NCBI RefSeq assembly: GCF_008330225.1
Contig: NZ_CP042466.1
Span: 692,501 to 756,500 of the forward strand
Length of the DNA: 64,000 nucleotides
Direction of reading: 5' to 3'
Source: Geobacter sp. FeAm09
Lineage (GTDB): Bacteria > Desulfobacterota > Desulfuromonadia > Geobacterales > Pseudopelobacteraceae
Positions within the stretch are counted from its first letter, which is position 1, and each line of letters starts with the position of its first letter. Position numbers and translations under genes: made by a program. The notes under the pieces are model-generated. The model searched no databases and was not told where the DNA came from. It saw nothing but the letters and a program-made list of their open reading frames with translations. Positions 4,914 through 56,600 of this stretch are shown one piece after another.

Positions 4914-6173
4914 ATGATGAGGAAAAGACTCGCATTGATCGTGGCCGGTTCCATCGCAGCGATGGCAACGGCTGCGTCGGCCGGAAACAAGGAGGGGACG
5001 TTCTCCCTCTCCCCCGTGATCGGCGGCTATACGTATGACGGGGTACAGCATCTTGAAACCAGCCCGGTGTACGGCGCCCGGGCCGGCTACAATTTCACCA
5101 AGGCGTTCGGCGTGGAGGCGCTCTTCGATTACGCCCATACCGAGGGGACCAAATCGACGAAGAAATACGACATGTACCGTTACGGCGGCGAACTGCTGTA
5201 CCACTTCTTCCCGGACAACACCCTCGTTCCTTACGTGGCAGCGGGTTACGCGGGGCTCAACTTCAACGACAACAAGCCCCAGGGGGCCTTTGACTACGGT
5301 GCCGGCCTGAAATACTTCCTGACCGACAACTTCGCGCTGCGGGGCGATGTCCGCCATATCATCTACAAGTCCGGCGGCGTCAACAGCACGACCGACAACA
5401 ACGTCGAATACACGGTCGGCGCCTATATCCCCTTTGGCGGGACGGCACCGGTCGTCAAACCGGTCGAGGCCCCGGCAGCACCTGCGCCGGCTCCTGCTCC
5501 GGCGCCCGAGCCTCCCAAGGCGGTGGAGCCTGCGCCGGCTCCCGCTCCGGCACCTGTCGCCCCTACGAGCACCTTGGCGGTTGCCCCAGCAGCCGTCACC
5601 AAGGGAGAGCCCGCCACCCTGAGCTGGACCTCCCGCAATGCCACGGCCTGCGATATCCAGCCCGGCATCGGGGCGGTTCCGCCCCAGGGTTCCATGAGCA
5701 TCACGCCTGCCGATAACACCGACTACACCCTGACCTGCAACGGCGAAGGGGGCAGCGTCACGAGCGCGGCCAAGATCGCGGTCACTGCGCCGGTGGTGGT
5801 GCCCAAACCGGTTGCCAAGCTGTGCAGCCCCACCACCCTGGAGATTCAGTTCGACACGGCCAAGTCCGACATCAAGCCCAAGTATCACGACGAGCTGAAA
5901 AAGGTGGGGGATTTCCTCAAGGAAAACCCTGGTGCCAAGGGTGTCATCGAAGGGCATACCGACAACGTAGGTGGCCTGAAGATGAACATGGATCTCTCCC
6001 AGCGCCGCGCCGAGAGCGTACGGGCGTACATCATCAAGAACTTCGGCATCGCCGCGGAGCGGATCAGTGCCAAGGGGTACGGCCCCACCAAGCCGGTCGC
6101 CAGCAATAAGAACGCCGCCGGCAAGCAGAAGAACCGCCGCATCGACGCCAACTTCACCTGCAACGGCCAGTAA
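4914..6173 (+). CDS. OmpA-family outer membrane protein with Ig-like insert
   Basis: A 419-aa outer membrane protein. Residues 1-23 are a signal peptide. About 25-180 form an OmpA-like beta-barrel rich in aromatic strand ends. About 183-225 are an Ala/Pro repeat linker. About 226-305 form an Ig-like domain (TWS-type strand LSWTSRNATACDI with paired cysteines). About 310-419 are the OmpA C-terminal peptidoglycan-binding domain (EGHTDNVG, LSQRRAESVRAYI). The linker-Ig insertion between barrel and peptidoglycan domain is not the classical OmpA layout. RBS AAAGGAGAG precedes ATG 4914. It is probably monocistronic, with a strong terminator downstream. Confidence 0.9.
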   Translation: MMRKRLALIVAGSIAAMATAASAGNKEGTFSLSPVIGGYTYDGVQHLETSPVYGARAGYNFTKAFGVEALFDYAHTEGTKSTKKYDMYRYGGELLYHFFPDNTLVPYVAAGYAGLNFNDNKPQGAFDYGAGLKYFLTDNFALRGDVRHIIYKSGGVNSTTDNNVEYTVGAYIPFGGTAPVVKPVEAPAAPAPAPAPAPEPPKAVEPAPAPAPAPVAPTSTLAVAPAAVTKGEPATLSWTSRNATACDIQPGIGAVPPQGSMSITPADNTDYTLTCNGEGGSVTSAAKIAVTAPVVVPKPVAKLCSPTTLEIQFDTAKSDIKPKYHDELKKVGDFLKENPGAKGVIEGHTDNVGGLKMNMDLSQRRAESVRAYIIKNFGIAAERISAKGYGPTKPVASNKNAAGKQKNRRIDANFTCNGQ

Positions 6174-45479: not shown

Positions 45480-46838
45480 TCAGTAGAACAGCTTGCGGGA
45501 GGCTTTCAGCAGGCGGGCGGCGGAGGATTTGTTGTTGTTGCTCCTGACCAGGGCCCATTCGACAACCCGGCGGGTGACGGTGTCGAGAGAGAATTCGTCG
45601 AGGGAGAAGGTGAGGTTGAGGGAAATCCGGTCGCCGGCCACCTCCCCGGTTTGTGTCTGAAAATGCTCCTGCAGGCGCAGGTGCTCGGGCCGGATCAGGT
45701 CCCCGCCGGTGACGATGGTGGCATATTCCAGTTGGTTGCGCAGTTCGCGCACGTTGCCGGGCCAGTCGTAGGTCATCATCAGGTCGAGCGCCATCTGGGA
45801 AAGTCCGGGGAGCTGTTTGCCCTGGTGCTGCCGGAATTTCCTGAGGTAGTGTTCCGCAAGGTGCGGGATATCTTCGCGTCTCTCCCGCAGGGGCGGGATG
45901 GTGATCGGGAAGATGTTGAGCCGGTGGAAGAGGTCCCGGCGGAAGGTCCCCCGGTCGCAGCATTCCTCCAGATTGCGGTGGGTGGCGACGATGACCCGGA
46001 AGTCGGCGTTGATCTGGCGGTCGGAGCCGACTTTCTCGTAGGTCCGCTCTTCCAGCAGGCGCAGCAGTTTCGGCTGGAGCGACAGCGGCATGTCGCCGAT
46101 TTCGTCCAGGAACAGGGTGCCGCCGTGCGCCCGGCTGCATTTTCCCTCGCGTTCGCGGTCGGCGCCGGTGAAGGCCCCCCTGACGTGGCCGAACAGCTCG
46201 CTCTCCAGCAGGGTTTCCGGGATGGCGGCGCAGTTGACGGCTATGAAGCTGGCCATGTTCTGCCCGGATGCCACGTGGATGGCCCGGGCCATGACCTCTT
46301 TTCCCGCCCCGCTCTCGCCGGAGATGGTAACGGTGGTGCGGGGGGAGGCGGCCACCTGCCGGGCTGCGGCGAGAGCCCTGCCCATGATCGGCGAATGGCT
46401 GGTCATGTTCTGGAAGCTGAACTTTTCCCGCTCGAAATCCAGCATCCGGTCATAACTGTGGCGTACCCTGGCGTTTTCGAGCAGCCGTTCCACCACCACC
46501 AGCAGTTCCTCCCGGTTGAGCGGCTTCAGCAGGTAGTCGCCGGCCCCCTCTTTCATGGCCGCCACGGCGCTGTTGACACTGCCGTGGGCGGTGACCAGCA
46601 CGAAAGGCAGGTCCGGGCGGACCTCGTGCACCCGACGCAACAACGCCACCCCGTCCATCCCCGGCATGACCATGTCGGACAGCATCAGGTCGAAGCGCCC
46701 CTCTTCCAGTTTTGCCAGGGCCTCGGCCCCGTCGGCGGCGCAGGCCGTCCGGTATCCGGCATCGTCCAGGTATCCCTTGACCATGAAGCGAAAGCTCTGC
46801 TTGTCGTCAACCACCAGTATCCGTGCGCCACTGTTCAT
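45480..46838 (-). CDS. Sigma-54-dependent response regulator (NtrC family)
   Basis: A 452-aa activator. The receiver has VVDDK, phosphoacceptor Asp in LMLSDMVMPGMDG and Lys in YLLKPL. The AAA+ domain has Walker A GESGAGKE, the GAFTGA loop and Walker B LFLDEIGD. The C-terminal Fis-type helix-turn-helix ends WALVRSNNNKSSAARLLKASRKLFY. Its start overlaps the stop of the hybrid kinase (ATGA), so they form a cognate pair. The palindromes and sigma-54 promoter just downstream are its likely targets. Confidence 0.93.
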   Translation of the reverse strand: MNSGARILVVDDKQSFRFMVKGYLDDAGYRTACAADGAEALAKLEEGRFDLMLSDMVMPGMDGVALLRRVHEVRPDLPFVLVTAHGSVNSAVAAMKEGAGDYLLKPLNREELLVVVERLLENARVRHSYDRMLDFEREKFSFQNMTSHSPIMGRALAAARQVAASPRTTVTISGESGAGKEVMARAIHVASGQNMASFIAVNCAAIPETLLESELFGHVRGAFTGADREREGKCSRAHGGTLFLDEIGDMPLSLQPKLLRLLEERTYEKVGSDRQINADFRVIVATHRNLEECCDRGTFRRDLFHRLNIFPITIPPLRERREDIPHLAEHYLRKFRQHQGKQLPGLSQMALDLMMTYDWPGNVRELRNQLEYATIVTGGDLIRPEHLRLQEHFQTQTGEVAGDRISLNLTFSLDEFSLDTVTRRVVEWALVRSNNNKSSAARLLKASRKLFY

Positions 46839-49462
46839 GGATAGCCACCCTTCATCCGTTTCATGAGTTTCTCGACCACCGGCTGCAGGTGTTCGGGCCG
46901 GGCCGACGGGGCGTGCCGCTGCAGCCAGGCCGCAAGTTCGGCCGGCTCCCGGTTTGCCAGGTGTCCGCACAGACCTTTCAGGGTGTGGGCGGCCCGGACG
47001 AGTCCGCTGCGGTCGTCGCGTTCGAGGGCGGTTTGCAGGCTCCGCAACTCGCCGTCGATATCCTGCAGCAGCATCTCCCGGTACTGCCGGGCGCGCTCCG
47101 GGTCGCCGGCCAGGTCGTTCCGGGTTTGTGCGTCCAACTGCGGCTCCCCGCCGGGCGGCGCTGCGGCGGTTTCCCCTCCGCACGCGGCCATGGCCTGGGC
47201 CAGCTGTTCGGGGACCACCGGTTTTGCCAGTACCCCGTTGATCCCCGCGGCATGACAGGCGTCGCGGGTGGACGCATCGGCATCGGCCGTAATGGCGATG
47301 ACCGGTACGGGGATTTCGGCCCGCTCCTCTTCCCGGCGCCTGATGCGGCGGGCAACCTCGATGCCGTCGATATCCGGCATGCGGATATCCAGCAGGACCA
47401 GGTCGAAACGCCGCTGCTCCATGAACCGCAACGCCTGCAAGCCGTCTTCCGCCAGCGTAACCTCCTGGCCCCAGGATCTCAGGATCTCTCCCAGCAGCCT
47501 GCGGTTGAATCCGTTGTCCTCCACCACCAGGACCGCACGGGGCGCCGGGGCCGCGGCCGGTGCAAGACGGCCGTCCGGCGCCGGTTCCGTTTCCCGGAGC
47601 GGCAGTGCGACGGTAAAACAGCTTCCCGCGCCGACCCGGCTGTCGACGGTGAGGCTTCCCTTCATCAGTTCCGTCAGGTTGCGGACGATGGCCAGGCCGA
47701 GGCCGGTGCCGCCGAATTTGCGGGAAATCGTCGGGTCGAGCTGGCGAAAGGGCTGGAAGAGCAGGGCGCGGCCGTTTTCGGGGATGCCGATGCCCGTATC
47801 CCGCACCTCGAAGCGGACCAGGGGCCGGTCTCCCTCCGCCGGTCGTCCGGCCTGGCTGACCGTGCAGGATACCGCGCCGCTTTCGGTGAACTTGACGGCA
47901 TTGGCCAGCAGGTTGGCGAGGATCTGGCGCAGGCGGAGCGGGTCGCCGAGGACCCAGGCGGGCACATCGTCGGCCACGCCGACCTGAAAGGCCAGCATTT
48001 TCCGCTCCGCCAGGGGGCGGTACTGCTCCTCCAGACCGGCGACGAGCTGCCGCAGATCGAACGGTACGGTTTCGAACTCCATCCGCCCCGCCTCGATCTT
48101 GCTCATGTCCAGGATATCGTTCACGAGCTCCATCAGGGAGCGCGACGATTGTTCGAGGATGGCGAGGTACTGGTTGATCAGGGCGGGGTCGGTTGCCGTG
48201 CGGGCCATGCCGCTGAATCCGACCAGCGCGTTGAGCGGGGTGCGGATTTCGTGGCTGACCAGGGCGAGAAACTCCGATTTCGCCTGCGACTCCAGGGCGG
48301 ACCGCTGCGCCTCCTGTTGCAGCCTGCGGGAACGCGTGTTCAGGATCATGGCGAATATGCTGCCGATGATCAGGCCGTTGATGATCAGCACCTGCCTGCC
48401 GTAGCTCGTGTTTCCCCGCAAGCTGGCGGGGGTGCTGCGGTTGGCAATCCAGAACAGGGTGAAAATGAAGGCGACGGCAACGAAGAAGAGTCGCAACGAA
48501 CGGCGGCTCGGGGTGCTTTCGCTCCGCAGGGTAAAGGTCGTGGCGACAAAATACCACCAGGTCACCCTGACCAGCACCAGGTTGGAAACCATGGCGAAAA
48601 AGATATGGCCGGAGACGATCGCCGCAAGCTGGAGGGGAAAGGCGCACAGCAGGAGATCGAGTCCGCGCATCATCAGCGGCGGGGGCTGATAGGGTTTGAA
48701 CAGCTCGCGGCAGAACAGAATGGTTGCGAAATTCGATCCGCAGTAGGCAACGACGGTAATCCAGTCTATCGTGCCCGGAGGAAGACCGGCAGGGATAAAG
48801 GGGGCCAAATAGCCGGTAATGGCCACGCCATACAGGGTGTACATGGCTTGATGCAGGGCAAACAGGCCGATTACCGGCAGCCGGTCCAGCAGATAACTGT
48901 GGAGGGCCCAGGACAATAGCAGCAGCATGGCGGTCACGAAAAACACCGCCATCAGGTCGAACCGGTCGTCCACGCGCTCGGCCTCCGCCGGCTCCAGGGC
49001 TTCCACCGTCAACTGCGACGAACTCCTGGTCTTGAGGCGCAGATAGTAGGTCGCCCCGGAGGGCGCCACGTTGACGACAAACCCCAGGGAATTTCTGGCG
49101 CGATCGCGCGTGTCGAAAGCATAGTGATTGCCGGTCAGGCGTGTCTTCCAGCCCGACGGGGCCCCCGCGTCCGCCTCGTAAAGACGGACCTCGTTGAGAA
49201 AAGGCTGGCGAATGAACAGCACCACCTCGTTCCCCTTGGCGGGCGCCCGGACCCGCAGGCGCAGCCAATGCGCGGAGTCGGTCAGCCCCCGGGAAAGCGT
49301 CGGACCGATCGGGGTAAACTCGCGCCCGACCACATCGGTGATCGTCAGGGTGCCGGCCGCGTCTTCCAGCGCGGCACGCGAAACGATCAGGTCACTTGCA
49401 ACGGCGGGGAGAGCAAGGGCACATCCGGCGATCAGGATGAACATGCCGAAAATGTATTTCAT
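46835..49462 (-). CDS. Hybrid histidine kinase with 7TMR-DISM sensor, receiver and Hpt domains
   Basis: An 875-aa protein. Signal peptide, then a periplasmic 7TMR-DISMED2-type beta domain (residues about 25-170), seven membrane helices (about 180-390), HisKA (SHEIRTPLNALVGF, His near 403), HATPase (NLLANAVKFTE, DTGIGI, GGTGLGLAI), a receiver (LLDIRMPD, Asp near 689) and an Hpt domain (AAHTLKGLCGH, His near 825). The 7TMR-DISM region often binds carbohydrates or other periplasmic ligands. ATG 49462 is the signal-peptide start. It is translationally coupled to the sigma-54 regulator. Confidence 0.9.
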   Translation of the reverse strand: MKYIFGMFILIAGCALALPAVASDLIVSRAALEDAAGTLTITDVVGREFTPIGPTLSRGLTDSAHWLRLRVRAPAKGNEVVLFIRQPFLNEVRLYEADAGAPSGWKTRLTGNHYAFDTRDRARNSLGFVVNVAPSGATYYLRLKTRSSSQLTVEALEPAEAERVDDRFDLMAVFFVTAMLLLLSWALHSYLLDRLPVIGLFALHQAMYTLYGVAITGYLAPFIPAGLPPGTIDWITVVAYCGSNFATILFCRELFKPYQPPPLMMRGLDLLLCAFPLQLAAIVSGHIFFAMVSNLVLVRVTWWYFVATTFTLRSESTPSRRSLRLFFVAVAFIFTLFWIANRSTPASLRGNTSYGRQVLIINGLIIGSIFAMILNTRSRRLQQEAQRSALESQAKSEFLALVSHEIRTPLNALVGFSGMARTATDPALINQYLAILEQSSRSLMELVNDILDMSKIEAGRMEFETVPFDLRQLVAGLEEQYRPLAERKMLAFQVGVADDVPAWVLGDPLRLRQILANLLANAVKFTESGAVSCTVSQAGRPAEGDRPLVRFEVRDTGIGIPENGRALLFQPFRQLDPTISRKFGGTGLGLAIVRNLTELMKGSLTVDSRVGAGSCFTVALPLRETEPAPDGRLAPAAAPAPRAVLVVEDNGFNRRLLGEILRSWGQEVTLAEDGLQALRFMEQRRFDLVLLDIRMPDIDGIEVARRIRRREEERAEIPVPVIAITADADASTRDACHAAGINGVLAKPVVPEQLAQAMAACGGETAAAPPGGEPQLDAQTRNDLAGDPERARQYREMLLQDIDGELRSLQTALERDDRSGLVRAAHTLKGLCGHLANREPAELAAWLQRHAPSARPEHLQPVVEKLMKRMKGGYP

Positions 49463-49570
49463 AAAAGAGTGCTCGGTTACCGGGAGATGGGGGATCGGGT
49501 CGCGCCCATTGGGATCACGTCCGGGACATCCCGGTTTGCACGACATTCGGACCATGACCGTTGTTTACTA

Positions 49571-49837
49571 TCAAAACTGCAACGGACGTGTCCAGGGTTT
49601 TGTGCAAATTTTGTGTAAATAACTTTTCGGGTTCCAGAAGAGAGCGCCAGCGCCCCCCAGAAAGGAAATGATCCGCATTCCCATGGACATCTGTCGAGCT
49701 GTGCTGTTGGTATCGATATCGAAGTGAAGGGCATATTGGTTGAACAAATCGGCATGATAGGCGGCCACCAGTTCTCTCTGCTCTGGCAACAGATGCAGAA
49801 TCTCCTCTTTCTCCAGAGTTTTAATCCGAATTTTCAT
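49571..49837 (-). pseudogene. Truncated N-terminal part of a DUF2157-like membrane protein
   Basis: 88 aa. The first 65 residues (IKTLEKEEILHLLPEQRELVAAYHADLFNQYALHFD, then SMGMRIISFLGGAGALFW) look like the cytoplasmic N-terminus and first helix of DUF2157-type membrane proteins. The rest turns into unrelated sequence (NPKSYLHKICTKPWTRPLQF), so the remaining helices are missing. It overlaps the stop of the preceding fragment (ATGA), as in an intact operon. Probably non-functional. Confidence 0.5.
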
Positions 49838-49980
49838 GGTTCTGCGCATGAGACGCGCATCGTGTCTCTTTCTGGCGGCACCTGGGCGGGCCAGCCGATC
49901 ACAAGCATCAGCAGACCAGCCGCGACAAAGGAAGCAAGCCGCTCCACCGTGCCGTGACCGGCAAGATTCTCCAGAATAGT
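49834..49980 (-). pseudogene. C-terminal fragment of a multi-spanning membrane protein
   Basis: About 48 residues remain (ILENLAGHGTVERLASFVAA, GLLMLVIGWPAQVPPERDT), like the end of DUF2339/DUF4401-type membrane proteins whose last helix is followed by a PP-containing tail. The upstream part of the gene has been replaced by the rhombosortase gene, which ends 11 bases away. The stop overlaps the start of the next fragment, indicating that both belonged to one operon. Confidence 0.4.
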
Positions 49981-49990
49981 TTGTCCGCCA

Positions 49991-50557
49991 CTATACCCGG
50001 CAGTCGCCCCTCTGTGATCCTGGCAATGAACATATCGATACCAGCGCGCCCACGGCAGCCCCGGCACAATGGGCCTGCCAGACGGGGGCCACGCCCGAAG
50101 CGCTTATGCCGAGCCATTCCAGACAGATCTTCATCAGCATGGCTGCAAGCAGCACGATTCCGGTCCGGGCGTCACGGACGATCAGGCGTATCGCGGCAAA
50201 GCTGAGAAGCCCGGCCGTGATGCCCGAAAGGCCGCCATAGACATCCACCGGATGTAAGGTCAGCAACTCCACCGATACAACAGTGGCCGCACACAGTGCG
50301 GTGCAGGAGATGGTCCCGACGCCTGAGCCCAATCGGCTGCAGAGAATCAGCACCAACCCCAGCGCCAGCAGGTCGTACCAGTAGTGCTGCCAGTTCAGAT
50401 GGACGAGATGTCCGCTGATGAGCCGCCACCATTCGCCCTGCCGGGTTCTGGCAATGTCCAGTGCCCAACGGTCGGGGGCGCCGGTTGCCGCTGCGGCAGC
50501 CAGCGCCGTGGCCAGCCAGGCTGTCAGCAGCACCGTTTGCGTTTGTTTGCTGCACAT
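49991..50557 (-). CDS. rrtA: Rhombosortase (rhomboid-family intramembrane protease)
   Basis: A 188-aa, six-helix rhomboid protease. The catalytic Ser111 is in VYGGLSGITAGL and His163 in VWQAHCAGAAVG; the WWRLISGHLVHLNWQHYWYD helix is conserved. Rhombosortases cleave GlyGly-CTERM tails of exported proteins. Start at 50557 overlaps the end of the rhombotarget lipoprotein gene by 34 bases, so the two are coupled. An upstream ATG at 50587 is also possible. Confidence 0.9.
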   Translation of the reverse strand: MCSKQTQTVLLTAWLATALAAAAATGAPDRWALDIARTRQGEWWRLISGHLVHLNWQHYWYDLLALGLVLILCSRLGSGVGTISCTALCAATVVSVELLTLHPVDVYGGLSGITAGLLSFAAIRLIVRDARTGIVLLAAMLMKICLEWLGISASGVAPVWQAHCAGAAVGALVSICSLPGSQRGDCRV

Positions 50558-51411
50558 AGCAACCCCACTCCCGCCATGGCGATCCAAGCCGCGTCGAATG
50601 AACCGCCTCCGGTTGTCTTGTACTCATTGACCCTGCCCCAGTAGTTCTCGCGTGAGGTGTCTTCTCCGGAAGGCGCCGAGCCCATGGGCCGAATTTCCGC
50701 AGCCTTTGTTGCGTCGAAATGTTCAAACTTGACCAGTGATTCGGCCAGGGTGGCAACCAGCTTTTTGGTGGCGTCCTCGATGCTGGAAACCGTGTCTTTC
50801 TGGGCCGCCCCCGATGACGCGAACAGCGTGGCACGCGACCTTTTTTCGTCAGAACCGTCAGCGCGGAAGATGAGGGCTCTGGATGGCACGTGGTAGACCG
50901 CCGCCTCAAGCACCGTGTTGGTATCGACAGTATTCCCGGGAATGACGAAGCCGCCGATGACGGTAATGTCCAGAAAGGCCGCGAGCGAATTCCGTTCATG
51001 CTTTTGGAACTGGTTCGCCGCCATGAGCACGATGACGTCCACGTCGAACTCCCTGGCCACCTGTTCCAGCTCGGCAACGCCGCCTTTGGGACGCAGGTAT
51101 GTGGAAGGTATGGCGTAGGCCGCAGTAACGTACTTCTTGTGGGATGCCAATTGGGAGCGGACGGACTCGATGACCTGCTTCTTGGTGGTTTCGGGGATGT
51201 CGAGATGTCTTTCGTCTTCCGGGACAAAGGTCACCCCGACCTTTATCGGCAGAACCAGCGGTTTTTTCTGCACCACAGGCGCGGTCGTTTCCTTGCCGGA
51301 GTAGAGGTAGGTGGCCAGACTGCTCTGCCGCTGTACCACGCGGATATTTCCGTCATAGGCACAGGCGGTGAGCGGGATGAACATCAGGACGATAACGAGG
51401 TGTTTCAACAT
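50524..51411 (-). CDS. Rhombotarget lipoprotein, predicted rhombosortase substrate
   Basis: A 295-aa lipoprotein (MLKHLVIVLMFIPLTAC, Cys17) whose mature domain (VFVPEDERHL-type strands and LEQVAREFDVDVIVLMA) matches the rhombotarget family. The C-terminus is a GlyGly-CTERM-like tail: TTGGGSFDAAWIAMAGVGLL followed by basic residues and a final Cys-Cys. This is the expected substrate form for the overlapping rhombosortase. RBS AAAGGAGCG precedes ATG 51411. The tail should be cut in the membrane after export. Confidence 0.88.
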   Translation of the reverse strand: MLKHLVIVLMFIPLTACAYDGNIRVVQRQSSLATYLYSGKETTAPVVQKKPLVLPIKVGVTFVPEDERHLDIPETTKKQVIESVRSQLASHKKYVTAAYAIPSTYLRPKGGVAELEQVAREFDVDVIVLMAANQFQKHERNSLAAFLDITVIGGFVIPGNTVDTNTVLEAAVYHVPSRALIFRADGSDEKRSRATLFASSGAAQKDTVSSIEDATKKLVATLAESLVKFEHFDATKAAEIRPMGSAPSGEDTSRENYWGRVNEYKTTGGGSFDAAWIAMAGVGLLCAANKRKRCC

Positions 51412-51449
51412 GGCAGATCGCTCCTTTCGTGGTTGGGTCCATCTCATGG

Positions 51450-51647
51450 TTATCTCCCGGAAAAAAGGTTGTCCATAACGGCGCCGATGCTGTTGCCGAG
51501 CATTTCCGGGGCGGGTTCGGTCCTGACCATGGCCTCGGCCTGCAGCCGTTCGACCCTGTGGGCAATGCCGTTGGATACCGTGACGATGGTGGTCAATGCG
51601 ATGAAGGGGATGATGACTGTTGTCAGTTTGTGAATGATGGTTTTCAT
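51450..51647 (-). CDS. Single-span membrane microprotein B
   Basis: A 65-aa protein with an N-terminal helix (MKTIIHKLTTVIIPFIALTTIVTV) followed by a charged tail (HRVERLQAEAMVRTEP). It resembles the neighbouring 57-aa protein in the M-(K/E)-T-x-I-I-x-K-L...IP...VT...S...HR/TRH pattern, suggesting a duplicated pair. The RBS AAGGGAGGAC lies upstream. It is 38 bases before the rhombotarget gene on the same strand. Function unknown. Confidence 0.65.
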   Translation of the reverse strand: MKTIIHKLTTVIIPFIALTTIVTVSNGIAHRVERLQAEAMVRTEPAPEMLGNSIGAVMDNLFSGR

Positions 51648-51699
51648 GGCGTCCTCCCTTGGTGAGGTGCTTCTATGAATCATGGGGCCAACCGATCCT

Positions 51700-51873
51700 T
51701 CAGCGCAGCATCACGCCGCCCGCCAGAGCCCGCAGAATGTTGTGCAGTGTGCGGTGCCGGGCCAGCGGATGGCGGGTATGCCGTGTTGAAAGGCTGGAGA
51801 TGGTAGTGACGGAGGCGACCAGGATAACCAGGGGGATGGCGGCGAGTGCCAGTTTGATGATGAAGGTTTCCAT
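51700..51873 (-). CDS. Single-span membrane microprotein A
   Basis: A 57-aa protein (METFIIKLALAAIPLVILVASVTTISS then RHTRHPLARHRTLHNILRAL). It has one membrane helix and a His/Arg-rich tail. GGGAGA precedes ATG 51873. It is first in the run of four genes: microprotein A, microprotein B, rhombotarget, rhombosortase. Its helix start is closely similar to microprotein B. Function unknown. Confidence 0.6.
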   Translation of the reverse strand: METFIIKLALAAIPLVILVASVTTISSLSTRHTRHPLARHRTLHNILRALAGGVMLR

Positions 51874-51917
51874 GACTGTCTCCCTGCTGCGTTCGTTCGT
51901 GTTTCACTGAACGTATT

Positions 51918-51933
51918 ACAGGGAGTGTGCCAA
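51918..51933 (-). promoter_or_regulatory. Sigma-54-like promoter of the rhombosortase cluster
   Basis: On the minus strand TTGGCACACTCCCTGT has a perfect -24 TTGGCAC but GT instead of GC at -12 (exactly 10 bases away). It is 45 bases before ATG 51873. The imperfect -12 makes this a candidate only. The rest of the 252-base gap is AT-rich with no gene. Confidence 0.35.
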
Positions 51934-52076
51934 AAGGCATCTTTCGGTATAACTGTATGATATTAAAAGTATAAATTGTGTAGCAATGGTTTGAGGGCTA
52001 TGTTTGGTGCAGGTGCGTATGAACATTTAATGATATGCTGATATGCATTGGATGAATACTTGAGTCCGTTTGTTTC

Positions 52077-52125: not shown

Positions 52126-55100
52126 TTACCCAGCGAGCGCCGCCAGGGCGATCTCCTTGATCCCCTTCAGGTCCAGCTTGCCGGTCCCCAGGATCGGCAG
52201 ACTTTCCACCTCCACGTAGCAATCACGCCCCGGCTTCCAGAGATTGGGCAGGGGGCTTTCGGCCATGTGCCGCTGCAGGGTCCCCGCGTCGGCCGCCTCG
52301 CGGGCAAAGAGCACCACCAGCCGCTCCCCCTTCTTCTCGTCCGGCACGGCAGTCACCGCCACCACCCCGGTCTGGCCCAGGCGGTTGTGCAGTTCGTCCT
52401 CCACCACACCGTGGGGCACCATCTCGCCGCCGATCTTGCTGAAGCGCGACAGGCGATCGGTGATGCGGATGAAGCCGTCGTCGTCCATGACGCCGATATC
52501 GCCGGTGACGTACCATCCCCCGCGAATCGCCTCGGCGGTCTTGTCCGGCCTCCCCAGGTAGCCGAGCATGACGTTGGGCCCCTTGACCAGCATCAGTCCG
52601 GCCTCACCCGGTTTCTGCTCAATACCGCTCTCCGGATCGACCACCTTGATTGCCACGCCCGGTATGGGGTGCCCAACGCTCCCTTCCTTGGAGCCGTACT
52701 GGCGCACGCCACCCACCTCCACATCCGGCAGGGAGAGGGTGATGACCGGGGCCAGCTCGGTGGCGCCGTACCCCTCCATCGGCCTGACGCCGAAACGCTC
52801 CTGAAAGGAGTCGGCCACCTTGGCCTTGAGTTTTTCAGCGCCGGTGACCACCAATCGGAGCGAGGCAAAGTCCTCCCGCTTGGCGCGCCGCAGGTACGCC
52901 AAAAGGAACGTAGGCGTGGCCAGGAGCAGCGTGGACTTGTGCTCCCGCACCATCTGGGCGATCTTCTCGCCATCCATGGGGTTGGGGTGATAGGCCGCCG
53001 AAAAACCGGAAACCAACGGAAACCAGAGCGTGCCGGTGAAGCCCAGGGAGTGGAAGAACGGCAGGGCCGAGCACACGTTGTCGGCGGCACTGACCCTGAA
53101 GACCATGCGTAGCGCCTCGATGTTGGACATGATGTTGTGGTGGCTCAGCATGACCCCCTTCGGTTCGCCGGTACTGCCGGAGGAGAAAATCACCGTGGCC
53201 ACACTGTCGGCGGAGAAGCCTTCACGGCCGCACAACAGCCGGGGCGGCAGGATACGGGCTTTCAACATGGCCAGCAATTTGTCCGCAGCGCCGATGGTGG
53301 GCAGGATATCCTCCAGCAGGATCATCCCTTCCAGCCGCGGCAACGAGGGGACTTTCTCGAGAAAGGCCTTCGAGGTGACGATGGTGGTGATGCCGCACTG
53401 CTCGACGGCCGAGCGCAGCGACCCTTCGGCGGCGGTGTAGTTCAGGTTGACCGGTATCCTGCCCAGCAACATCAGGGCAAGGTTGGCCAGTACGCCTCCC
53501 ACCGACGGCGGCAGCAGCAGCCCCACGTGCCCTGCCGTGCCGATGGTGCCCTCCAGCTTGCCTGCCAAGGCCACGGCGCCTGTCAGGGTATGGCCGTAGG
53601 TGAGGGTCCTGCCCGAGGTGTCGGCAACGGCCTTGCGTTTCCAGTGCAGCCGGGCGGACTGGATGAAGTATTGTTCCAACGGACGACGGCGCGGTTTGCG
53701 CGAGTCGAAGTAATCGCAGGAAAGTTCGGATACTCGCTGGCGCACCTCCATGGCCGTGCTGGTCGAAGGCATTGGTTTCCCGAAGATGATGGTCATGGGA
53801 TAGGGGGAAAAAGCCGGTAGGCGCGACAGCAGGCGGCCATGGGCGTAGGAGAGGATGCTGCCCCAGGCGCCGCCGATGTAGACCGGGATGATGGGGTAGT
53901 CGCTGCCCTTGACGATGCGTTCGAACCCGCCGCGGAACTCGCGCAACATGCCATTCCTGGTGAGTTGCCCCTCGGCGAAGATGCAGACCAGGTAGCCGTC
54001 ATCCAGCGCAGCCCGCGCCTGCTTCATGAACTCCAAGAGTCCCTTCCTGCCGTCCTCAGAGGAGACCGGGATTACCCCCATGAGCCGGAACAGGCCGCGC
54101 AACAGCGGGGTGTTGTAGATGCTGCGCTCCATGACGAAACGGATGCGGCGCTGGTTGGTGGCGGTCAGGAGCAGGGCATCGACCCAGGTGACGTGGTTGG
54201 GGACCAGCAGTGCCGGCCCTTCCACCGGCAGATTTTCGCCGCCGATGACATTCAGGCGGTAGAAGATGCGCATAGTGGCCAAGGCAATGAAGCGGAGCAG
54301 GAAGTCGGGCAGTATCCAGAAGGATGCCAGGGTCAGAAGCAAGGTGATGACGCCGACGATGCTGAAGCCCTGGGCCGCCGAAAGTCCCATCGGCCCGCTC
54401 AGGAACCAGGTCAGCCCCGAGGCGATCAGGATCGCCACCCAGTTGATGAAGCTGGCTGCGGCCAGCACCTCGCCCCGTTTGGCCGGTTCGGCCTGAAACT
54501 GGATGAAGGTTTGCAGCGGGAGGCTGAACAGACCGGCGGAGAGACCGAATAATGTCAGAATCGCCAGGCAGGAAGCAAGGGCGGAGGGCACAACGTGCAG
54601 CAGGATCGGGGCAATGGTCAGGCCGGCTGCGCCGATCGGTACGATGCCGAATTCTACGTCTCTCCCCGATAGTTTGGCCGCCAGCAGCGAACCGCCGCCG
54701 ATACCGAAGGCTGCCGCCAGAAAGAGGTAGCCGCTGTGGGCCTCGGAGAGATGCAGCGCCTGCATGCCGTAGGCGATAAGGTTGAGTTGGGCATAGGCTC
54801 CGACAAACATGAAATAGGCCTGGCCGATCACCGCCAGCATCAGGTGCCGGTCACGGCGGATGCTTATGACGGTACGCAGGATCTCGGTCGGCAACAGGGC
54901 GACATGCCGCTTGGCATCGGCGCGTGGGGTGGCGTCCATGCCGCCGGCCGCCAGCAGTCCGGCCAAGGCCACACCGAGACAAAACAGCGCCGCCAGCCAG
55001 TAGCGGCCCTGTGCGGCCTGGGTCAGGGCCGAGGCGAGCGTGGTGCCCAGGATGATGGCCAGGTAGGTGAAAGATTCGATCAGGCCGTTGGCGCGGGAAA

Positions 55101-55533
55101 GCTGTTCGCGATTGGCCAGTTCCGGGATCACGCCGTATTTGGCCGGAGCAAAAAAGGCGCTGTGGGTAGCCATCAGGAAGATCACCACATACAGGCCGTT
55201 ATGCCATCCCATGAAAAACGCCGCCACCGCCAGGGCGGTCACCACGACCTCAACCGTCTTGACGAGCACGATGATGCGCGACTTGCGCAACCGGTCCGCC
55301 AGGCAGCCGGCCGGGGCGGAAAACAACAGGAAGGGCAGCACAAAGGCCGCCCCCACGGCGGCAGTGATCACGCCGGCCTGGTCCGCCCCCTTGACGCCGA
55401 TCAGGCAAAAGATGATCAGGAGCTTGAGGATGTTGTCGTTCATGGCCCCAAGGAACTGGGCCGCGTTGAGGCGACTGAAGGAACGGGGGAGGTTCGAGTC
55501 TCCGCTACGGTTTGTCTCGCCGGCTGCACACAT
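52126..55533 (-). CDS. aas: MFS - lysophospholipid acyltransferase - acyl-ACP synthetase fusion
   Basis: A 1135-aa trifunctional protein. Residues about 20-400 are a 12-helix MFS transporter like LplT (LNAAQFLGAMNDNILKLL). About 420-620 are a PlsC-type acyltransferase with the HxxxxD motif in NHVTWVDALLL near 444. The rest is an AMP-binding acyl-ACP synthetase (SSGSTGEPKGVMLSHHN near 784, then YGATELAP). It should flip and re-acylate lysophospholipids. Start ATG 55533 has GGGAGG upstream, and the amidohydrolase gene ends 5 bases before it. Confidence 0.93.
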   Translation of the reverse strand: MCAAGETNRSGDSNLPRSFSRLNAAQFLGAMNDNILKLLIIFCLIGVKGADQAGVITAAVGAAFVLPFLLFSAPAGCLADRLRKSRIIVLVKTVEVVVTALAVAAFFMGWHNGLYVVIFLMATHSAFFAPAKYGVIPELANREQLSRANGLIESFTYLAIILGTTLASALTQAAQGRYWLAALFCLGVALAGLLAAGGMDATPRADAKRHVALLPTEILRTVISIRRDRHLMLAVIGQAYFMFVGAYAQLNLIAYGMQALHLSEAHSGYLFLAAAFGIGGGSLLAAKLSGRDVEFGIVPIGAAGLTIAPILLHVVPSALASCLAILTLFGLSAGLFSLPLQTFIQFQAEPAKRGEVLAAASFINWVAILIASGLTWFLSGPMGLSAAQGFSIVGVITLLLTLASFWILPDFLLRFIALATMRIFYRLNVIGGENLPVEGPALLVPNHVTWVDALLLTATNQRRIRFVMERSIYNTPLLRGLFRLMGVIPVSSEDGRKGLLEFMKQARAALDDGYLVCIFAEGQLTRNGMLREFRGGFERIVKGSDYPIIPVYIGGAWGSILSYAHGRLLSRLPAFSPYPMTIIFGKPMPSTSTAMEVRQRVSELSCDYFDSRKPRRRPLEQYFIQSARLHWKRKAVADTSGRTLTYGHTLTGAVALAGKLEGTIGTAGHVGLLLPPSVGGVLANLALMLLGRIPVNLNYTAAEGSLRSAVEQCGITTIVTSKAFLEKVPSLPRLEGMILLEDILPTIGAADKLLAMLKARILPPRLLCGREGFSADSVATVIFSSGSTGEPKGVMLSHHNIMSNIEALRMVFRVSAADNVCSALPFFHSLGFTGTLWFPLVSGFSAAYHPNPMDGEKIAQMVREHKSTLLLATPTFLLAYLRRAKREDFASLRLVVTGAEKLKAKVADSFQERFGVRPMEGYGATELAPVITLSLPDVEVGGVRQYGSKEGSVGHPIPGVAIKVVDPESGIEQKPGEAGLMLVKGPNVMLGYLGRPDKTAEAIRGGWYVTGDIGVMDDDGFIRITDRLSRFSKIGGEMVPHGVVEDELHNRLGQTGVVAVTAVPDEKKGERLVVLFAREAADAGTLQRHMAESPLPNLWKPGRDCYVEVESLPILGTGKLDLKGIKEIALAALAG

Positions 55534-55538
55534 ACTAT

Positions 55539-56600
55539 CTACCTCCCGGGAATATGAAACAGTTTCGAATTGTTGGCAAAGATCGTTTCCGGGACGCCCA
55601 ATGCCCGTTTCAACTCCACATCCTGGTCCCAGGGATTTTTGATGGCGGCGATGCGCCACACGGACCTGAGCGGTATGTGGAGTGCGTGCCACCAGGGAGA
55701 GGTGATGCCGGTGGCGATAAGTGGCATATCGGTCCCGTGCAAGAGGCGGCCGTGCAGTTCTTCATGCTTCAATAAGCGTACAAGCTGACCCTGGCGGTTC
55801 GCTTGCGTCAGGGCCGATATGTCTCCGTACAGATTGGGATATTCGGCACACAGGCGCAAAAAACGCTTGAAGTTCTCCTCGCCATGGTTCCAGCCATTGC
55901 CGGCGGCATGTGCAGCAATAACCGTCACTCCCAGGGAAAGGGGCAAACGCAGGCGTTCGGGGTCCGCAAGCTCGTCTTTCTTCCGGGTGAAGGAGTTTTC
56001 CTGGCCGGTGTGGGTCAGGAGCGGCAGGCCGAGTTCCCGGAGCCGCACATAGAAAGGTATCAGGCGCCGGTCTGACGGATCGATGTCCTGGACGGATGGC
56101 AGCCATTTCAACAGTACGGCACCGTCAGCCGCAGCTTGATCCAGGCGCTGGATGGCGTCCTTTCGATAAGGGTTGATACTTGCCCCGAACAGGAGATTCG
56201 GGTGGCGTTTCGTCTCCCGGGCCAGGAAATCATTGGGTATATAAACCTCCGTGCGCGAGCGGTCCAGCGAGCCGTTTGCATCGACAACGCCGTCCATGGC
56301 CAACACCACCGCCGCCTTAACATGGTGCGATTCGGCCAGGGTGCGGGAAAGTCGCTGCAGGATCAGGGAATCGCCCTCACGCTCCAGTTCCTTTTCGGTT
56401 ACGCCGAACGACTTGAGATAAATACGGTAGCGCCAGTTCTTGCGCAGTGCCGGAGAGACAAAACACCCGCTGCCGCCGGCGCCTATCCCTGCGGTGTGGC
56501 AGTGGATGTCAATGATTGGAGGCTTCGCTGGTCCGCTCGCCGTCCCCGTCCGGGGCCACAATACCAGATAAAATGTCGCTGCTAGAAGTAATAGTTTCAT
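55539..56600 (-). CDS. Exported metal-dependent amidohydrolase (TIM-barrel)
   Basis: A 353-aa protein with a signal peptide (MKLLLLAATFYLVLWPRTGTA/S) and the metal-ligand motifs IIDIHCHTAG, LLTHTGQENSF, VIAAHAAGNGW and LLHGTDMPL of the amidohydrolase_2 family. Metal is expected to be Zn or Mn. Substrate unknown; the operon with a lysophospholipid acyltransferase hints at a periplasmic lipid or envelope role. RBS AAGAGGAAA precedes ATG 56600. The operon is divergent from a sigma-54 activator. Confidence 0.82.
   Translation of the reverse strand: MKLLLLAATFYLVLWPRTGTASGPAKPPIIDIHCHTAGIGAGGSGCFVSPALRKNWRYRIYLKSFGVTEKELEREGDSLILQRLSRTLAESHHVKAAVVLAMDGVVDANGSLDRSRTEVYIPNDFLARETKRHPNLLFGASINPYRKDAIQRLDQAAADGAVLLKWLPSVQDIDPSDRRLIPFYVRLRELGLPLLTHTGQENSFTRKKDELADPERLRLPLSLGVTVIAAHAAGNGWNHGEENFKRFLRLCAEYPNLYGDISALTQANRQGQLVRLLKHEELHGRLLHGTDMPLIATGITSPWWHALHIPLRSVWRIAAIKNPWDQDVELKRALGVPETIFANNSKLFHIPGR

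Follow-up and report, generated by a model that had tools for sequence, protein, structure and literature searches.

Two paralogous single-span microproteins upstream of a rhombosortase in Geobacter sp. FeAm09 and a proposed link to an Arc3-related envelope operon

Gene layout and the two microproteins

A rhombosortase gene of Geobacter sp. FeAm09 overlaps the gene of its predicted lipoprotein substrate, and two short frames encoding proteins of 57 and 65 amino acids (hereafter, MP57 and MP65) lie upstream of the pair, which raises the question of whether these microproteins serve the protease, as a preliminary description of the locus supposed, or belong to another system. All four frames were found in the order originally described, on the minus strand of the window (the whole 64,000-nucleotide stretch of DNA that was analyzed), where aas is followed by a promoter-like element, MP57, MP65, the rhombotarget lipoprotein, the rhombosortase, a hybrid histidine kinase and an NtrC-type regulator. 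The features are as follows:

45480–46832, minus: NtrC-type response regulator with a sigma-54 interaction domain, ending short of a full HTH
46835–49555, minus: hybrid histidine kinase (7TMR-DISMED2, HisKA, HATPase, receiver, Hpt), downstream of the pair
49864–49977, minus: C-terminal stub of DUF2339 (Arc3A), approximately 38 codons
49991–50557, minus: rhombosortase, with the Ser in YGGLSG and the His conserved
50524–51411, minus: rhombotarget lipoprotein (lipobox LTAC; Gly-rich stretch, membrane helix and basic C-terminus)
51450–51647, minus: MP65, one predicted membrane span, C-terminal end (N/G)SY...LF..SGR-like
51700–51873, minus: MP57, one predicted membrane span, basic tail
51880–51887, minus: GCAGGGAG, Shine-Dalgarno region of the 57-aa gene, reverse complement (one G-U) of CTCCCTGT
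51918–51925: CTCCCTGT, promoter arm complementary to GCAGGGAG
51916–51932, minus: TGGCACACTCCCTGTAA, promoter-like element, sigma-54-like −24/−12, GG-N10-GT in the window
52023–52032, no strand assigned: ACATTTAATG, upstream repeat at approximately −160 from the 57-aa ATG, possible enhancer-binding-protein site
52126–55692, minus: aas-type acyl-ACP–phospholipid O-acyltransferase (MFS, acyltransferase and AMP-binding; NF006386, 1542 bits), upstream neighbor

The rhombotarget frame spans 50524–51447 with a probable start at the ATG at 51411, and the rhombosortase frame spans 49991–50587 with a probable ATG at 50557, from which the overlap between the two genes is approximately 34 nt. The NtrC-type regulator stops after ...SRKLFY, short of the usual HTH end, and is probably truncated. 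A 92-aa frame at 49571–49849, which separates the DUF2339 stub from the histidine kinase gene, is without relatives among the fetched loci.

The identification of a rhombosortase with a lipoprotein substrate is borne out by curated models: the protease passes TIGR03902 (101.5 bits, cut-off 84), with S110 (GxSG) and H162 unchanged across an alignment of nine sequences, and the lipoprotein passes TIGR04179 over positions 1–258 of 259 (187.6 bits, cut-off 150). The tail TGGGSFDAAWIAMAGVGLLCAANKRKRCC was recognized by inspection; the generic GlyGly-CTERM model TIGR03501 matched nothing in the genome at E ≤ 1 and did not match the lipoprotein. By analogy with the chemistry known from Vibrio (PMC6219818, available text), the rhombosortase would trim the C-terminal helix of the lipoprotein. 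The two genes, both above the curated cut-offs, are adjacent, as in the single-target genomes of known rhombosortase/rhombotarget systems (PMC3237569), but, unlike in those systems, the pair sits inside an operon of the microprotein/DUF2339 type. A scan of the genome contigs with the rhombotarget protein returned no relatives, the single-sequence patterns being too strict. A structural model of this protein (mean pLDDT 68) weakly matches outer-membrane lipoprotein folds, HpaA, LptE, PelC and DUF330 among them, and these matches were set aside as too weak for a functional assignment.

Neither MP57 nor MP65 has a significant match to a Pfam or NCBIfam family. Their shared N-terminal pattern is M-x-T-x-I-x-K-L....IP, one x shorter than the version originally given, and the similarity itself is real: a profile-profile alignment of the two families that covers their first 35 residues has a probability of 96%, although part of this score may reflect shared hydrophobic composition. 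The basic tail ascribed to both proteins is a property of MP57, which carries a net charge of +6 after residue 28; the tail of MP65 is at −1 and its N-terminus at +2. This distribution of charge suggests that the two proteins take opposite orientations in the membrane. MP57, which is predicted to form a long N-terminal helix followed by a shorter C-terminal one, has relatives 48–74% identical in the first alignment, with invariant residues spread over the full length. The preliminary description had named a lack of purifying selection as grounds for dismissing the small frames; pN/pS is approximately 0.12–0.5 in most close ortholog pairs of MP57 and of MP65, a measure that rests on close pairs because distant ones rise towards 1 as synonymous sites saturate. 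Sequence comparison thus confirms MP57 and MP65 as real, paralogous and conserved genes under purifying selection.

The promoter-like element and the leader

The sigma-54-like promoter reported in front of the microproteins is conserved, although its −12 base varies. The TGGCACACTCCCTGTAA-type motif has one match in the 64 kb of the window against 0.03 expected, and TGGCAYnCTCCCTG is invariant at 15/15 57-aa genes compared, starting 54–61 bp before the ATG; where an MP65 gene stands first, it is preceded by a slightly altered version of this element. Exact copies of TGGCAYnCTCCCTG in the 4.1-Mb genome number two, both before 57-aa genes. The second of these genes (L127, 5877–6212; G000:C1:2607038-2607208) has an identical promoter element. 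Two genes resembling lipoprotein genes, neither with a curated Pfam match, come next, an order also seen in G071, and a C92-like protein is encoded beyond them. The −24 sequence TGGCAY, which agrees with the TGGCAC of sigma-54, is present in all 23 sequences; at −12, where sigma-54 expects GC 10 bases after GG, the dinucleotide is GC at five of the 15 57-aa loci and GT at 10, including the window. The operon promoter would be activator-dependent and probably of the sigma-54 type. Words like ACATTTAATG occur at approximately −160 in several loci, often with a second one 11 or 22 bp further out; 15 were counted at ≤1 mismatch against 0.5 in shuffles, an enrichment biased upward because the word was picked from the same data. 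The hybrid kinase and NtrC-type regulator of the window were weighed as the operon's activator and set aside; neither was seen at the other loci inspected.

The promoter arm CTCCCTGT and the Shine-Dalgarno region GCAGGGAG could form 7–8 of 8 pairs in most of the 23 sequences. Since RNAalifold found no compensatory changes in the 8-bp helix across these sequences, no RNA element is claimed.

Distribution of the microproteins and rival readings

A census of 141 genomes of the order, most of them drafts, was performed with profiles for MP57, MP65, DUF2339 and rhombosortase, at cut-offs set by the authors for the microproteins (MP65, E ≤ 2.3e-4; MP57, E ≤ 5.4e-7). A confident microprotein was found in 23 genomes and a long DUF2339 gene in 26 (split ones included), and the two occur together in 18 of the 23 microprotein genomes (Fisher p ~2e-12); a strong rhombosortase match is present in 4 of the 23 and in six genomes overall (Fisher p 0.007), although both tests assume independent genomes, an assumption that relatedness violates. 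DUF2339 has a microprotein gene immediately upstream of it at L011, L015, L059, L060, L061, L065, L066, L067, L069, L070 and L128–L131, and the 57-aa gene, the 65-aa gene and DUF2339 stand side by side in L066, L067 and L147. The plainest operon, L147, reads aas, promoter, 57-aa gene, 65-aa gene, DUF2339; its record is called Nitrospirae and is probably misbinned, given that its aas shares 85% identity with one from Geobacter. The aas neighbor recurs in L063, L068, L069, L070 and L128 as well as L147, and proteins of approximately 450–460 aa follow DUF2339 in L130, L132, L135, L138 and L139. Judging from named records, MP57 loci belong mainly to Geobacteraceae and related groups, with Geotalea toluenoxydans (L151) among the carriers of MP57, and no MP57 match at E ≤ 1e-4 was found outside the order across the class.

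The association with DUF2339 has exceptions. Eight genomes have a long DUF2339 without a microprotein, and three have a microprotein without DUF2339 (G071/L063, G092/L133, G127/L062); in G015, DUF2339 is on another contig. Lipoproteins or a C92 amidase come after the microprotein in L063, L071 and L133. These layouts, together with that of L127 and with the window, which is without Arc3A, tie the microproteins to a type of operon rather than strictly to Arc3A.

This distribution bears on the proposal that the microproteins are devoted to the rhombosortase or its target, as partners or as regulators. The shared operon in the window speaks for it, as do an MP65 directly before a rhombotarget in one further genome (G134/L016) and the presence of a microprotein in four of the six rhombosortase genomes of the order. 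However, 19 of the 23 microprotein genomes are without a strong rhombosortase match, and their usual neighbor is DUF2339/Arc3A. At other rhombosortase/rhombotarget loci, where the microproteins had been expected, there was no profile match at G003/L013 or G045/L014, the microprotein is absent from the rhombotarget-only genome G082/L012, and inspection of frames showed none at L021, L022 and L024 outside the order (L021 and L022 being, like L013 and L014, rhombosortase loci); L023, another outside locus, was excluded. Where both occur, a full DUF2339 stands at the locus in three of the four genomes (G053, G123, G134) and a stub in the window, so that the link between microprotein and rhombosortase is explained by the shared operon. 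The protease-partner proposal is thus largely refuted by distribution and has little chance of being correct.

Two further readings were weighed. If the small frames were cis-acting leader ORFs, the leader RNA rather than the peptides would matter, with a CTCCCTG/CAGGGAG hairpin hiding the Shine-Dalgarno site; their promoter-proximal position and the widely kept dyad agree with this. Yet amino-acid conservation over the full length and the low pN/pS of close pairs point to the peptides, the dyad is devoid of compensatory changes, MP65 is often the second frame, and CTCCCTG would lie upstream of the transcript if the element is a sigma-54 promoter, all of which makes a leader role unlikely. Alternatively, MP57 and MP65 might be stress-induced membrane-acting peptides of the holin or type-I-toxin kind, as the hydrophobic helix and basic second helix of MP57 and the tight control suggested by promoter and dyad would allow; their conserved position at the start of envelope operons, the non-basic MP65 and the failure to notice an antitoxin or antisense gene in an unsystematic look leave this improbable.

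A proposed Arc3-related operon and its rhombosortase cargo

The reading preferred here, to which a probability of roughly 0.55 is given, is that MP57 and MP65 are small inner-membrane accessory proteins of an inducible, Arc3-related envelope operon, in which the rhombosortase pair is optional cargo. They would be the first genes behind the promoter of an operon of the order, which named records identify as Geobacterales. An activator-dependent promoter, probably of the sigma-54 type, would switch this operon on, and the operon would normally extend into DUF2339/Arc3A, a very large membrane protein, often with aas adjoining. Each would place one helix in the inner membrane, the basic tail of MP57 probably being cytoplasmic and the C-terminus of MP65 periplasmic, and both may serve the membrane machinery of the downstream genes as small subunits, either accessory or regulatory. 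Short single-helix accessory proteins encoded with a large membrane protein include CydX, KdpF and AcrZ, which MP57 and MP65 resemble in kind only. A search of the literature on small membrane proteins with sigma-54, rhomboid and Geobacter returned nothing.

According to the available text of PMC8926400, the Arc3 antagonism-resistance cluster comprises arc3B (Pfam 13163) and arc3A (DUF2339); in Pseudomonas aeruginosa, Arc3A guards against the phospholipase effector Tle3 in that it keeps lysophospholipids from accumulating, and aas genes, whose product is assigned in the literature to lysophospholipid re-acylation, adjoin arc3 in many bacteria. From these roles, the present operon may be read as an inducible envelope-maintenance or defense operon. 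It resembles the Arc3 cluster in that DUF2339 stands beside aas, behind the microproteins, in relatives, with the stub and an aas neighbor (frequent with Arc3, not defining) remaining in the window. It differs in the microproteins in front, which find no mention in that available text, in its sigma-54-like promoter as opposed to the Gac/Rsm regulation given there, and, in the window, in the loss of Arc3A.

On this reading, two unannotated microproteins, first guessed to be partners of the protease, belong instead to an operon whose core, Arc3A, has been studied experimentally, and the conserved promoter is open to direct testing. The arrangement suggests that Arc3-type envelope defense beyond Gammaproteobacteria is equipped with small subunits and a mode of control of its own, and that the rhombosortase pair behaves as optional cargo within such operons. 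A bolder version, offered tentatively and with odds clearly below even, is that MP57 and MP65 are two unrecognized paralogous single-span families that head a sigma-54-type envelope-defense regulon of Geobacterales, whose cargo can be exchanged (Arc3A, rhombotarget/rhombosortase, paired lipoproteins, C92 amidase), and that this machinery cannot work without them.

In the window, the intact DUF2339 gene is absent from the locus. The stub, in frame and directly behind the rhombosortase, matches PF10101 positions 630–659 (E 1.5e-4) and shows approximately 50–70% identity with the C-terminal ends of complete DUF2339 proteins; no second DUF2339 was found elsewhere in the genome. At L016 (G134), MP65 and a full DUF2339 flank a rhombotarget and a rhombosortase, an arrangement that the window shares except that it adds MP57 and has lost DUF2339. 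The rhombotarget/rhombosortase pair may thus have taken the downstream place, with DUF2339 then deleted and its C-terminal stub left. A comparable stub lies behind MP65 in G132/L064. In-frame stubs holding only the last 30–50 residues were seen in three genomes (L064 of G132, 5096–5227; G137:C9:5510-5602; the window, 49864–49977), an unusual outcome for random deletion; in G137, a full copy is present at another place as well. At L068 (5113–5496; G119), a rhombosortase lacking approximately its first 75 residues, and without a rhombotarget, lies between MP65 and DUF2339 and apparently represents decay of the cassette.
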